Shown one piece after another: positions 44,888 through 60,852 of a stretch of DNA of 64,000 nucleotides. Origin of the DNA: Sporanaerobium hydrogeniformans (GTDB taxonomy: Bacteria > Bacillota > Clostridia > Lachnospirales > Cellulosilyticaceae); the NCBI RefSeq assembly GCF_002735925.1, contig NZ_PEDL01000004.1, positions 1 through 64,000 of the forward strand. The letters run 5' to 3'. How positions within the stretch are numbered: position 1 is the first letter of the stretch; each line of letters begins with the position of its first letter. Under the pieces are notes generated by a model that was given only the letters and a program-made list of their open reading frames with translations, ran no database searches and was not told the DNA's origin. A program made the translations under genes and the position numbers.

Positions 44888-47464
44888 TTATTCATTTTTA
44901 CCACAGCATGTTTTGTACTTTTTACCACTGCCGCAAGGACAAGGATCATTTCTACCTATCTTTTCTTTTTTAACAGTTGGTTTTGCACCAAGACTTTCAT
45001 CTGAGTGATTAGTAGCTACTGGTTCCGCTACTCTTTCCCTTTTGATTTCTTTATTTACCACAATACGTACATGGTAAAGTGCTTTTACTGTTTCTTCTTG
45101 AATATTTTCAATCATTTCTTCAAAGATATCAAAGCTTAAGAAACGATACTCTACAAGAGGGTCTCTTTGACCATAAGCTTGTAAATTAATACCTTGCTTC
45201 ATTTGATCCATATTATCTAAGTGATCCATCCATTTTTGATCAATCACTTTAAGAAGTATCACACGTTCAATTTCTCTAAGCTGTTCGCCAATTTCTTCTT
45301 CTTTTGTTTTATAGAGCTCTTCCGCTTTTTGACTAAGAAGTTCTTTTAAACCATCTACGGTAAGATTCTCTTGCTCTTCTTTCGTAAATTTCACATCTGC
45401 AACAGGGATAATTGTACGAAGGTGTTCCATCATACCTGCAATATCCCATTCTTCTGCATATTCGATACCATTTGTGCAGTTATCTACTACTTTGCTTATT
45501 ACAGCTTTAGCCATTTCGATAACCTTCTCACGCAGATTTTCATTTTTAAGCACTTTAAAACGTTCAGCATAAATGATTTCTCTTTGCTCATTCATGATTT
45601 TATCATATTCTAATAAATGCTTACGTACACCAAAGTTATTGCCTTCCACTTTCGTTTGGGCTCTTTCAATGGCTTTGGAAAGGATTTTGTGTTCAATGGG
45701 TTCATCATCAGGAAGACCAAGTGCATCAAACATTTTAAGCGTTGCCTCTGGTGTAAAGAGCCTCATTAAGTCATCTTCAAGAGATAGATAAAAGCGTGAA
45801 ACCCCTGGGTCACCTTGACGACCTGAACGGCCACGTAGCTGATTATCAATACGTCTTGATTCATGGCGCTCTGTACCAATAATTTTAAGCCCACCTAAGT
45901 CTTGCACACCTTCTTCAAGCTTAATATCTGTCCCACGACCTGCCATGTTGGTAGCAATGGTTACAGCTCCTTTTTTACCTGCTTCAGCAATGATTTCTGC
46001 TTCTTTCGCATGGTATTTCGCATTAAGTACTTGGTGTTTAACACCTTCTCTTTTCAAAAGCTTACTTAAAAGCTCTGATGTGTCAATATTAACTGTACCT
46101 ACAAGTATAGGCTGCCCCTTACTATGTGTCTCTTTAATATCCTCAATAACAGCTGCAAACTTAGCTGCTTCTGTTTTATATACTACATCTGCAAGGTCTT
46201 TACGCTGAATAGGTTTATTAGTAGGAATGACAATAACGTCCATTCCATAAATATCTCTAAATTCTGCCTCTTCTGTAAGTGCCGTACCTGTCATACCAGC
46301 CTTTTTAGCATATTTATTAAAGTAATTCTGGAAAGTAATCGTTGCTAAAGTTTGACTTTCCTTCTTAACCTCTACACCTTCTTTTGCTTCGATTGCTTGG
46401 TGAAGTCCATCTGAGTAACGACGACCATCCATTAAACGTCCAGTAAATTCATCGACAATAACAATTTCACCTTCATCGTTAACGATATAGTCTTTTTCAA
46501 TATGCATAAGGTTATGTGCCTTAAGGGCAATTGTAATATGGTGCTGAATATCCATGTTTTCTGGATCTGCAAGGTTTTCAAGACCAAAGTATTGCTCTGC
46601 TTTTCTCACACCTTCTTGGGTAAGGGTAACAGTCTTTTGTTTTTCATCAACAACGAAGTCCCCTTCTTCTTCAATTTCTTCACGCATTAAAGTAGACATA
46701 GCTGTCTCTTCTCCTAAAAGTTTACCTTTTTGAAGGCGACGCACAAAAATATCTGCTGCTTTATAAAGATGTGTGGATTTAGAACCTTGTCCTGAAATAA
46801 TAAGTGGTGTTCTTGCTTCATCGATAAGAACAGAGTCTACTTCGTCAATTACAGCATAGTTAAGATCTCTTTGAACCATTTCTTCTGCATAAAGTACCAT
46901 GTTATCACGAAGGTAATCAAACCCAAATTCATTATTAGTTCCATAGGTAATATCACAGTTGTAGGCTTCTCTACGTTCGTTATTTTCCATACTGCTTAAG
47001 ATACAGCCTACACTAAGACCTAAAAAGCTATAGAGTTGTCCCATCCATTCGGAGTCACGTTTTGCAAGGTAATCATTAACAGTAACAACATGTACACCTT
47101 TACCCTCTAATGCATTTAAGTAAACAGGAAGAGTTCCTACTAAAGTTTTACCCTCACCTGTACGCATCTCAGCAATACGCCCATTGTGTAAGATTACCCC
47201 ACCTACAAGTTGTACTCTAAAGTGCTTCATGTTAAGTACACGATAGCCTGCTTCTCTACATACCGCATAAGCTTCTGGTAAGATATCATCTAACGTTTCT
47301 CCCTTGTTAAGACGTTCTTTAAACTCTGCTGTCTTAGCTTTTAACTCTTCATCAGATAGCTTTTGCATTGCTTCATCATAGGATTCAATTTTGGTAATAA
47401 TAGGTTCAATTCTCTTTAACTCTCTCTCTGAATGAGTACCAAATATTTTCTCAATTAAGTTCAA
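44888..47464 (-). CDS. secA: Protein translocase ATPase SecA
   Basis: SecA drives protein export through SecYEG. The protein has the Walker [10 protein letters not shown] near residue 100, the [15 protein letters not shown] box, [13 protein letters not shown], and the C-terminal zinc and SecB/ribosome-binding tail [14 protein letters not shown] take the TTG at 47464 (MNLIEKIFG) as start, because AGAGG lies 8 nt upstream. The GTG at 47473 directly abuts that site. The length is about 858 aa. A promoter lies at 47598-47570 with a leader of roughly 100 nt. Confidence 0.97.
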
Positions 47465-47569
47465 ATTCTTCACCCTCTTCTTCTATTTTAATAGACTCGT
47501 ATAATCGTTTTATTTATAGACTGCAAAATACTGTTCTATCTTCATTTACATTCTTTTACACTATCATTA

Positions 47570-48325: not shown

Positions 48326-48865
48326 TTAATCTAAAGTAGGTTCAATTAGACCATAGGTTCCATTTTTACGCTTATAAACAACATTTACTTCTTCTGTCTC
48401 ACTGTCTAAATAAACAAAGAAGTTGTGACCTACTAACTCCATCTGCATCACTGCTTCTTCTGCATCCATTGGTTTAATGGCAAATCTCTTTTTACGATCA
48501 ATTTTAAGAGTTACATCGTCTTCTATTTGTTCTTCATTTAAAAAGCTTGGTGTAAATTGTACGGTTGCTGTATTTCTATGTTTACTTCTTAATTTGTTTT
48601 TAAATTTATTTACTTGTTTTTCTATTACTTCTACAGCATCATCCATGATGTTGTACATATTCTTACCTTCTACTTCTGCACGTAGAACTGTTCCATTAAA
48701 AGGAATAGTAATCTCAATGATATGGCTCAGCTTTTCAACAATTAATGTAACCTGTGCCTCTACATTGTCATTAAAATACTTATCTAGCTTTTCCATCTTT
48801 TCTGCTACGGCATTTTCTAATGCTGTTGTAAGTTCAATGTTTTTTCCACTAATGTTGTATTTCAT
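48326..48865 (-). CDS. hpf: Ribosome hibernation promoting factor, long form
   Basis: Long HPF pairs two 70S ribosomes into inactive 100S dimers during slow growth. The N-terminal S30AE domain (MKYNISGKNIELTTALENAV to about 105) binds the decoding region. The C-terminal domain (IDRKKRFAIKPMDAEEAVMQ to the end, with VGHNFFVYLDSETEEVNVVY) dimerises. The ATG at 48865 is chosen: GAGGAG lies 8 nt upstream, and upstream TTG/ATG codons overlap that site. The length is 179 aa. A stem-loop abuts the ribosome site. Confidence 0.95.
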   Translation of the reverse strand: MKYNISGKNIELTTALENAVAEKMEKLDKYFNDNVEAQVTLIVEKLSHIIEITIPFNGTVLRAEVEGKNMYNIMDDAVEVIEKQVNKFKNKLRSKHRNTATVQFTPSFLNEEQIEDDVTLKIDRKKRFAIKPMDAEEAVMQMELVGHNFFVYLDSETEEVNVVYKRKNGTYGLIEPTLD

Positions 48866-48881
48866 ATGCATCTCTCCTCTC

Positions 48882-48917
48882 AACTAGCCTACTTGTCTAT
48901 CTATAGATAAGCTAGTT
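48882..48917 (-). promoter_or_regulatory. Stem-loop directly upstream of the hpf ribosome site
   Basis: On the minus strand AACTAG pairs with CTAGTT, and inside it CTTATCTAT pairs with ATAGACAAG (one wobble). The structure ends immediately before GAGAGGAG. It could modulate hpf translation or mRNA processing. Confidence 0.45.
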
Positions 48918-56922: not shown

Positions 56923-57645
56923 TTATAGCACCTTACTCAGGAAAAGCTTAGTACGTTCTTCCTTTGGATTTTCAAAAACTTCTTTTGGATTACCTTGCTC
57001 TAAAATCTTACCTTCATCCATAAAAAGCAGTCTTGTGCCTACTTCTTTAGCAAATCCCATTTCATGAGTAACGATCATCATCGTCATTCCCTCATTAACA
57101 AGTTCTTTAATAACTTCTAATACTTCTTTTACCATCTCAGGATCTAAAGCTGAGGTTGGCTCATCAAACAACATTACCTCTGGATTCATAGCTAGAGATC
57201 TTGCTATAGCAATACGCTGTTTCTGTCCACCTGATAAACGATTAGGATACTCATTTGCCTTTTCTCTAAGTCCTACTTTGTCTAGAAGGTTATATGCCAC
57301 TTGCTCTGCTTCTTTCTTAGACAATCCCTTTAGCTTCATAGGTGCCAAAGTAATATTTTCTAATACGGTCATATGAGGGAATAAGTTAAAGTGTTGAAAA
57401 ACCATCCCTACCTTTCTTCTAATAAGATTAATGTCCATATTTTGGTCAGTAATATCTACATCACCAACAAGGATCTGCCCACTAGTGGGTTCTTCCATAT
57501 AATTAATACAGCGTAAATAAGTGGATTTTCCTGAGCCAGAAGGTCCAATAATAACAACGACTTCTCCCTTATTCACATAATCCGTAATGCCTTTTAATAC
57601 TTCTAGGTTACCAAAGCTCTTGTGTAAGTTATTTATTTTTATCAT
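56923..57645 (-). CDS. Polar amino acid ABC transporter ATP-binding protein
   Basis: This 240-aa ATPase belongs to the PAAT family (GlnQ/HisP type). Walker A is [12 protein letters not shown] near residue 35, the Q-loop is [11 protein letters not shown], the signature is LSGGQKQR and Walker B is [13 protein letters not shown]. The ATG at 57645 is preferred (GGAG 8 nt upstream) over the GTG at 57654. It is the last gene of the binding protein-permease-ATPase operon, 13 nt after the permease. It powers uptake of an unidentified amino acid. Confidence 0.95.
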
Positions 57646-57658
57646 TCTCTCCACTCCT

Positions 57659-58399
57659 CTACCTTGAACTATTTAGCTTTTTTTCAACGCTACGCATAAT
57701 TTTTGTAAATATACCAGTCATGAGTAGATAACATAAAGCTACAATAATAAGTGGTAAGGAAGCATTCATGGTACGACTAATAATGATATTACCTGCTTTC
57801 ATTAAGTCTAATCCACCAATAAAGCTAACGATAGCTGTTTCTTTTATCAAAACAACAAACTCACTTACAATGGTTGGAAGCATTTGCCTAAAAGCCTGAG
57901 GCATAATGATGTAACGCATTGTATCAATATATTTAAGTCCTAAAGAGCGACCAGCTTCCATTTGCCCTTTATCAATGCCCATAATCCCTGCACGGATAAT
58001 CTCTGACATATAGGCCCCACTATTTACACCAAAAGCAATTCCCCCTACAACAATACGAGGAATTGAAGATTGTCCAAACATAACACTCCACATAAAAATA
58101 ATTTGTACTACAACAGGTGTTCCACGGATAACATCTACGTAAAGCTTTGCAATAAATTTTAAAATCTTTTCTACCCACTTTAAAATAAAGCCTAAAACGC
58201 CAGGACGCTTAGGAAACTGGCAGATTTGAATAATAGCTACAACAATACCAATCAAAATCCCTATTAATGTGGCAATGGCTGTTAAACCTAATGTCCATAA
58301 CATCCCTTGAATAAGGAGATTGTAAAATTTTTGTTCCATAAAAGCCCTAAAAAACGCTACTGTTTGTTCTCCTAAAAATGCAGCTAACATTTCTTGCAT
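57659..58399 (-). CDS. Polar amino acid ABC transporter permease
   Basis: The 246-aa HisM/GlnP-type permease has five or so membrane helices. Characteristic segments are [19 protein letters not shown], the EAA loop [20 protein letters not shown] and [20 protein letters not shown]. The ATG at 58399 is chosen (GGGAG 5 nt upstream); the ATG at 58417 overlaps the ribosome site. Only one permease gene is present, so a homodimer is expected. It is separated from the binding-protein gene by an intercistronic hairpin. Confidence 0.94.
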
Positions 58400-58506
58400 A
58401 AACTCTCCCTTTCTCATTTTTTGTCATTTTAGTATTATTATACAGCATAACCCATAATTATTCTATGTGTATTTATTTTTTATTCTGAATTTATGCTTAT
58501 ATAGAT

Positions 58507-58555: not shown

Positions 58556-59350
58556 TTACTCAGTAAAATAAGTAGCTAATGCTTTATCATATTCTCCATT
58601 TTCTTTCATTTCTTTAATCGTCTCATTAATAGCTGTTAAAAGTTCTGTATCACCTTTACGTACTGCAATAGCGTATTCCTCTTCTACGAAAGGTGCCTCA
58701 ATAACTTTAACATCCGATTGTCCTTCTACAAGCTTTTTGGCTGGTTCTGCATCAATAACAACTGCATCTACTTTGCCTGCTTTAAGATCCATTACTGCAA
58801 GAGGTCCTTTATCAAAGGAAATCACTTCGATGCCTTCTGTCATACTTACAAATAAGTCTCCTGTTGTACCAAGTTGTACTCCCACTTTTTTACCCACTAA
58901 ATCGTCTGCTGTTTGAATCTCATTATTATCTGCTTTAACAATAATAGCTTGCTTAGACTTGAAATATTTGTCTGAAAAATCCACTTGTGCCTCACGTTCA
59001 GGATTGACACTCATTCCTGCTGCAATAAAGTCAATTTGTTTATTGTTAAGTGCTACAATAAGTGAGTTAAATTCCATGTCCTCAATTTTTAGTTCTTTAC
59101 CCATTTTAGCTGCAACAGCTTTAGCAATCTCAACATCAAAACCAACTACCTCTGAGCCTTCACGGTACTCAAAAGGTTCAAATTCTGCATTCGTTCCCAT
59201 TACTATATAATTTTTTTCTTCTGATGGTGATGCACTGGCTACTCCTGGTTCAGCCTCATTTTTCTTTGCACCACAACCTGCCATTAAACCTATACTTAAA
59301 ACACCTATTCCTACTAATGCTATAACTTTTATTAATTTATTTGCCTTCAT
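58556..59350 (-). CDS. Polar amino acid ABC transporter substrate-binding lipoprotein
   Basis: A lipoprotein signal with a lipobox (LMAGC, Cys near residue 26) is followed by a family-3 solute-binding domain. It shows YIVMGTNAEFEPFEYREG, VVGFDVEIAKAVA, FIAAGMSVNPEREAQVDFS and VGVQLGTTGD, the amino-acid ligand-binding strands. The length is 264 aa. It is anchored to the outer face of the membrane and serves the permease/ATPase encoded next. GGAGG precedes the ATG. The ligand is not determinable here. Confidence 0.94.
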   Translation of the reverse strand: MKANKLIKVIALVGIGVLSIGLMAGCGAKKNEAEPGVASASPSEEKNYIVMGTNAEFEPFEYREGSEVVGFDVEIAKAVAAKMGKELKIEDMEFNSLIVALNNKQIDFIAAGMSVNPEREAQVDFSDKYFKSKQAIIVKADNNEIQTADDLVGKKVGVQLGTTGDLFVSMTEGIEVISFDKGPLAVMDLKAGKVDAVVIDAEPAKKLVEGQSDVKVIEAPFVEEEYAIAVRKGDTELLTAINETIKEMKENGEYDKALATYFTE

Positions 59351-59600
59351 CTTAAAACCTCCCTATTTTTTATCTATTCCTATTTCACTTCATTTTTAAT
59401 ACATAAACCATCTATATGCATCATTATACATATTGATGAATAATTAGTCAATACTTATTTTTGATTCTTTTTCATGCTTTGGTAAGAGGCCTTATTCTAT
59501 CAAGCCCTAGAGACTCATAAATTATGAGTTTTTTATCCTTTTTATCCCCATTTTTATCACCATAGTGTTAACATAATCTTCCTATAATTATTTTTGAACC

Positions 59601-59671
59601 TGTGGATAATGTGTATAACTTTGTGCATAACTTGAAAACACGTTAAATTTTTTACCCCCACCTGTGGATAT
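59601..59671 (-). promoter_or_regulatory. DnaA-box cluster
   Basis: Read on the minus strand, three consensus boxes stand head to tail: TTATGCACA (59630-59622), TTATACACA (59618-59610) and TTATCCACA (59609-59601). A near-consensus ATATCCACA (59671-59663) has the same orientation. The flanking gap 59351-59790 is AT-rich with no gene; weaker TTATCCCCA-like sites lie at 59542-59563. It could titrate DnaA, control initiation or regulate a promoter. There is no dnaA or dnaN gene in the window. Confidence 0.7.
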
Positions 59672-59789
59672 CATGTTTGTTATAGGAATTACGTTAAAAT
59701 TTTATGTAAAAAGGTGAAGAAAATTCTCCTTTATATTTCAGAATTATATATTTTTAGTAAAAAATTGTATTTTTTATAAAGTGCATAAA

Positions 59790-59838
59790 ATAAATCCCAC
59801 TCTTTTAGGATTTTTATCTCCATAGAGGGGATTTATTG
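59790..59838 (-). terminator. Terminator of the Dabb gene
   Basis: AATAAATCCC (59790-59799) pairs with GGGATTTATT (59829-59838) plus inner CTC/GAG pairs, with T-rich sequence following on the minus strand. Confidence 0.6.
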
Positions 59839-59841
59839 AGA

Positions 59842-60165: not shown

Positions 60166-60852
60166 TTAGATATTCTCTACACCATAGCCTGCATAATCTA
60201 CTATTTTGGTAGTAGAAATTTGTTTATTAGCTAGAGAAATCTCATAGGTATCAAAAGAACCTGCTTCAATTTCTTCAAAGGCCTTGATATACATACTACA
60301 CATTTCTTCTACTTTAATATCTTGCTTGGTATAAATATTCTCTTCGTTATTTAAATAACGCATAATCTTAATCCCCCATTCAGGATCCTCAAGATAAACT
60401 TCTTTTAAGATTCTTTCAATCATAGTCTTTGCGGTTCCATAAAGTGTAGTTCCTGCACCATTATCCCCATAAAAACCTTCTGATGAACTAAATACCATTT
60501 TTTTAGTATTGTATTTACTCATCACCTTGCAAAGCATAAGTGTACTTGTAAGGTTGGTATGATAATATGTAATAGGTTTGCGTTTATAATCACCTGTTGA
60601 TTTAATTCCAGCAAAGTGAATGACACCTTCTATTTCATTTTCTTTAAAAATACGTGCTACCATATCTTCATGCTCTAAATCCATTGCATAAAGTTTAAAG
60701 TCATGTCCACTTTGTTCACGAATATGAGTTAAAGTTTGAGCTGTAGAAGTTAAAAAATTATCTACTATAATCACTTCATATCCTCTTTTTAATAATTCAA
60801 TACATACATGTGAGCCTGTAAAACCTGCTCCTCCTGTTACTAAAACTGCCAT
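60166..60852 (-). CDS. Shortened UDP-glucose 4-epimerase-like SDR protein
   Basis: The N-terminal half matches GalE: the NAD loop TGGAGFTGSH (usually GYIGSH), DNFLTSTAQTLTHI, VIHFAGIKSTGDYKRKPITYY and FSSSEGFYG, with a catalytic-type YGTAK. After IKIMRYLN the usual NPVGAH block and the sugar-binding domain are missing. They are replaced by about 55 residues that keep only YEISLANKQIST, and the total is 228 aa instead of about 335. It is therefore unlikely to be an ordinary GalE. It may be a decayed paralogue or a remodelled enzyme. The frame and ribosome site are intact. Confidence 0.75.
   Translation of the reverse strand: MAVLVTGGAGFTGSHVCIELLKRGYEVIIVDNFLTSTAQTLTHIREQSGHDFKLYAMDLEHEDMVARIFKENEIEGVIHFAGIKSTGDYKRKPITYYHTNLTSTLMLCKVMSKYNTKKMVFSSSEGFYGDNGAGTTLYGTAKTMIERILKEVYLEDPEWGIKIMRYLNNEENIYTKQDIKVEEMCSMYIKAFEEIEAGSFDTYEISLANKQISTTKIVDYAGYGVENI

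Follow-up and report, generated by a model that had tools for sequence, protein, structure and literature searches.

A conserved array of DnaA boxes far from dnaA in Sporanaerobium hydrogeniformans, probably an origin-distal DnaA-box cluster

The window analysed here, a 64,000-nucleotide stretch of the Sporanaerobium hydrogeniformans genome, contains an array of DnaA boxes upstream of an amino-acid ABC transporter operon. The geometry of the array, its conservation, its distance from dnaA and its independence from any single neighbouring gene are established here, and the same geometry is found in other Bacilli at the site of the Bacillus subtilis-type gcp-ydiF cluster. On the strength of these sequence comparisons, we consider it probable, at roughly 0.6, that the array serves as a DnaA-box cluster (DBC) distant from the origin, sequestering DnaA or modulating it.

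Organisation of the array

Read along the minus strand, the array has the form ATATCCACA - 32 nt - TTATGCACA AAG TTATACACA TTATCCACA, with box starts at -41, 0, +12 and +21 (Table 1). An earlier note on this DNA had claimed three perfect head-to-tail boxes within 30 bp in one orientation, and these were found at 59601-59630; the fourth near-match that it placed nearby is ATATCCACA, which is oriented as the core. The surrounding stretch, described as 490 bp long, gene-free and AT-rich, measures 491 bp and is 73.5% AT, compared with 66.2% across the window. Two near-boxes face the core from the opposite strand, both falling inside the interval of the earlier note, which begins at 59540. The position of the first is occupied by a perfect TTATCCACA in G001, a complete genome from the same family, and that of the second reads TTATCTACA in genus g9. 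As a candidate structured RNA, the locus gave just a sub-threshold snoRNA match and was set aside.

Table 1. Coordinates of the array and of neighbouring features in the window
Feature	Position	Strand	Remarks
DnaA box c, TTATCCACA	59601-59609	minus	Perfect match
DnaA box b, TTATACACA	59610-59618	minus	Perfect; abuts box c (9-bp repeat)
DnaA box a, TTATGCACA	59622-59630	minus	Perfect; 12-bp repeat with box b, spacer AAG
Fourth box, ATATCCACA	59663-59671	minus	1 mismatch; 41 bp upstream of box a
Facing near-box, TTATCCCCA	59542-59550	plus	1 mismatch; 88% identity in family
Second facing near-box, TTATCACCA	59554-59562	plus	2 mismatches, weak; 72% family identity
Array-bearing intergenic stretch	59351-59841		491 bp, gene-free
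ABC-operon promoter, TTGACT-17-TATAAT	59423-59451	minus	150 bp downstream of array; near-invariant in 8 family genomes
Solute-binding protein (SBP_bac_3), amino-acid ABC transporter	58556-59350	minus	Pfam PF00497
ABC permease	57659-58417	minus	Pfam PF00528
ABC ATPase	56923-57654	minus	Pfam PF00005
hpf, long ribosome hibernation promoting factor	48326-48883	minus	Pfam PF02482 + PF16321; beside the array in the majority of relatives
secA	44888-47473	minus	Adjoins hpf here and in relatives

The hpf and secA genes of the window lie 10.7 kb downstream of the array on the same strand, with opposite-strand genes intervening. Positions 60166-60852 encode a GalE-like protein that, at 228 aa, is short for a UDP-glucose 4-epimerase and is conserved in a second genus of the family (64% identity, L009).

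Lone boxes are about as frequent as predicted, with seven in the window against 4.2 expected, as might be anticipated if the array were a chance cluster or if its boxes were preserved merely by hitch-hiking with conserved neighbours. The box triple, in contrast, appears in none of 1500 Markov-simulated windows and has an analytic expectation of ~1e-6 per 64 kb. Moreover, a scan of the whole 3.74-Mb genome revealed the array to be the only place in which two perfect same-strand boxes lie 0-12 bp apart, so that the density of boxes is, as the earlier note had supposed, beyond chance. The chance or hitch-hiking explanation is already refuted by the footprint in the family and by the phylum-wide recurrence of the geometry, which are described below.

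Conservation in the family and beyond

In eight genomes of the family, the array precedes this ABC operon and its spacings are unchanged. Among these genomes, the core boxes share a mean pairwise identity of 95%, the facing near-box TTATCCCCA 88% and the fourth box 85%, whereas the operon promoter reaches 73% and the sequence between these elements 50-58%. From the values of 85-95% for the boxes against 73% for the promoter, we conclude that the boxes are the more strongly constrained of the two.

Whole genomes were scanned with the pattern TTATNCACA-NNN-TTATNCACA-TTATCCACA, a module of 30 bp with fixed spacing, and the reversed pattern served as the control. Allowing two or fewer mismatches, the module is present in 138 of 294 genomes of the order, representing 69 of 142 genera. 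With no more than one mismatch, it is present in 65 of 293 genomes of the class (49/181 genera) and in 88 of 249 genomes of the phylum (66/183 genera). The reversed pattern gave zero matches in every genome at the order, class and phylum levels. A lack of conservation in close relatives had been named as grounds for rejecting the cluster; the boxes are kept far beyond the family, and that objection has failed. Weak BLAST matches (L019-L029) were discarded as short AT-rich chance matches with no array, and the loci drawn from a protein search of genome contigs are too distant to carry the array of the window and were used solely to reach named Bacilli genomes.

A fourth same-strand box, which the pattern does not require, accompanies 95 of 118 distinct loci, solely at -30 to -33 or -40 to -42; other positions average 0.65 loci each. 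The two placements are about one helical turn apart, and this phased placement of the fourth box confirms the array independently. There is usually one array per genome. Two or three per genome are seen at L254-L257 (family f46, genus g167), and in two complete g167 genomes all of the arrays are within ~10% of the genome from dnaA.

At 24 of 126 loci, a palindrome, CACAAAACA-NN-TGTTTTGTG or half-degenerate forms of it, is located at +45 or +72, and none was found in flanking background windows. Examples of the form CACAAAACANNTGTTTTGTG occur at L249 (+45 from the core), L189, L191, L196-L198, L259-L261, L309 and others. The palindrome is absent from the genus of the window. It accompanies the array next to hpf, tsaD, V-ATPase and other genes, and since it is present with the array even where hpf is missing, it is part of the element rather than of hpf. 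The clostridial LexA motif, GAACnnnnGTTT, is matched by the palindrome core in part only (PMC4234289).

Position relative to oriC

The description of the cluster as far from any dnaA gene is borne out: dnaA of the source genome resides on a different contig (C64:110977), and in relatives array and dnaA are separated by 0.02-1.2 Mb. Expressed as percentages computed from the coordinates of about 25 near-complete relatives, the source genome itself being in 64 contigs, the separation is 2-25% of the genome, where 50% is possible, and the array is in the origin-proximal half throughout. Neither dnaA nor dnaN is a neighbour at any array locus tested.

An AT-rich stretch with dense boxes, and with facing boxes across an AT-rich gap, might be taken for a replication origin, or for an additional or relic one, which DnaA could open. 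The mapping against oriC and GC skew proposed in the earlier note makes this highly improbable. The skew is negative throughout the 191-kb contig of the window, on both sides of the array, with no switch at the array. In G001 (4,714,237 bp), it flips instead at dnaA and near 2.5 Mb, and the homologous array, at 3.80 Mb, is inside a uniformly negative arm. A normal bipartite oriC is already provided by the many boxes that flank the source-genome dnaA on both sides, and among more than 80 aligned loci there are no conserved triplets after the core of the kind expected of a DnaA-trio or unwinding element. We reject a second or relocated origin on the basis of GC skew, the position of dnaA and the normal anatomy of oriC. 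One further match to the array, in G004 of the same family, is simply the oriC of that genome. Its dnaA-dnaN region (L101, G004:C109) carries 11 perfect TTATCCACA boxes in one orientation, mostly ~10-20 bp apart; G004 is without the array.

Genomic addresses of the array

In a sample of loci that is not random, comprising the best matches and one locus per genus picked by the analyst, hpf adjoins the array in 69 distinct loci, usually followed by secA, a solute-binding protein gene of the window type does so in 22, tsaD in 11 and ydiF in 5. In G046, the array is followed by the ABC operon, hpf and secA in that order, so that a single ancestral locus can account for both contexts, hpf and ABC.

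These addresses raise the main rival to the DBC reading, control of a neighbouring gene. Acting as a transcription factor, DnaA might govern hpf ancestrally and the amino-acid ABC operon in this family, linking the state of replication to translation or nutrient uptake. We regard this as unlikely, though deserving of serious consideration. The array is upstream of hpf in 67 of the 69 distinct hpf loci, which come from several classes, and on the same strand in 68, and this constant orientation keeps the alternative alive. Furthermore, homologous ABC solute-binding genes are downstream of the array in families f1, f24, f26, f58 and f65, and DnaA is known to regulate some B. subtilis genes, such as sda (PMC4447404). 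On the other hand, the array is 165-743 bp from the start of hpf, a variation unlike the fixed spacing inside it, with no fixed short distance of the sort associated with promoters, and the conserved ABC promoter here is itself 150 bp away. The array also persists without hpf, and in G134 it is located between hpf and secA. Elsewhere it lies between convergent genes, trxB and V-ATPase subunit D (G280), NlpC/P60 and DUF1846 (G261), or ydiF and tsaD (Niallia), where it cannot be a promoter. The variable distance to hpf, the fixed internal spacing and the convergent contexts, taken together, favour a function of the array's own over control of one gene.

In the Bacilli, tsaD and/or ydiF present their 3' ends to the array in Niallia nealsonii, Niallia sp. 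NCCP-28, Virgibacillus salexigens and a Paenibacillus. At L333 (Paenibacillus hemerocallicola), hpf starts ~0.8 kb from the array on the other strand, so that the link with hpf extends into the Bacilli. At L274 and L275 (family f66), the array is directly downstream of a gene resembling that for the sporulation master regulator, spo0A, named by eye from its sequence.

Discussion

The earlier note offered the DnaA-box clusters of B. subtilis as one parallel, and it is this one that position, skew, conservation and the match to the gcp-ydiF site in Bacilli favour. Like the B. subtilis DBCs, the array has several boxes, at least three of them close together, and is intergenic, outside oriC and origin-proximal. 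In Niallia the module is found between the convergent tsaD (gcp) and ydiF genes, where B. subtilis has an experimentally known cluster, and the same site is used in Virgibacillus and Paenibacillus. The B. subtilis gcp-ydiF site binds DnaA with a Kd of 0.15 uM (PMC4447404), and early initiation follows the joint deletion of six DBCs outside oriC (PMC5295017). Unlike these, the Clostridia array is situated at hpf-secA or the ABC operon, and there is usually one per genome rather than six. The gcp-ydiF cluster of Bacillus tequilensis differs too from the fixed 9/12/31-41 geometry; it is without the abutting pair, and the array geometry is therefore not strictly required for a DBC. Also counting against the DBC reading are the occurrence of the array in no more than about half of the order when two mismatches are allowed and its steady upstream, same-orientation placement at hpf, as a regulatory site would show. 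With the Firmicute bipartite oriC the array shares its DnaA boxes, but not the dnaA/dnaN neighbour, the skew switch or the DnaA-trio.

If the array is a DBC, DnaA would bind the three abutting or 12-bp-phased boxes cooperatively, together with the fourth box 31 or 41 bp away, and the four boxes would give rise to a complex of fixed geometry. Such a complex might draw DnaA from oriC, or alter the state of DnaA, and so tune when initiation occurs. Since the array lies in the half of the chromosome nearer the origin, its copy number would be expected to climb soon after initiation. In this organism we would predict that DnaA binds the array, that the array titrates or modulates DnaA, and that initiation is affected.

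Rather than serving as a passive sink, the array might act in the manner of DARS, recharging DnaA-ADP to DnaA-ATP, or of datA, inactivating DnaA-ATP. The rigid geometry and the usual single copy per genome would suit an active complex better than a sink, and the palindrome could be a cofactor site comparable to those of IHF and Fis in datA and DARS2. IHF, for which datA has a site between essential boxes, is not known from the Bacillota. We judge such activity improbable. The E. coli DARS has a three-box core in which one box is inverted, whereas the core boxes of the array are all head to tail, with two abutting. The palindrome is missing from this genus. In B. subtilis, nucleotide control of DnaA is thought to be less important (PMC4447404). 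Like datA, the array is a non-coding DnaA-box locus off oriC, on the half of the chromosome nearer the origin, but it has no known sequence or locus homology to datA, which comprises five boxes and an IHF site (PMC4585315). In E. coli, the datA and DARS sites are likewise conserved in sequence and spacing and in their relative distance to oriC (PMC4585315).

We also put forward a broader proposal, more tentatively and at somewhat less than even odds. The array may be a dedicated Bacillota element for the control of DnaA, usually single-copy, with boxes at 0, +12 and +21, a further box at -31 or -41 and, in many cases, the palindrome at +45 or +72. As such, it could be a Gram-positive counterpart of datA and DARS whose geometry has been kept while its address has moved among hpf-secA, the ABC operon, gcp-ydiF and other sites.

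The general kind of element is known from B. subtilis. In the literature searched, no paper joins DnaA boxes with hpf and none deals with such clusters in Lachnospiraceae; the rigid phylum-wide geometry, which is the unusual feature of the array, the Clostridia hpf/ABC location and the palindrome appear to be undescribed there. A single 30-bp pattern is sufficient to find the array in a large share of Bacillota genomes. For the question of how Gram-positive bacteria beyond Bacillus limit DnaA activity, the array offers a concrete site for deletion in any culturable species. Its position also points to a connection of DnaA, as initiator of replication, with ribosome hibernation through hpf.
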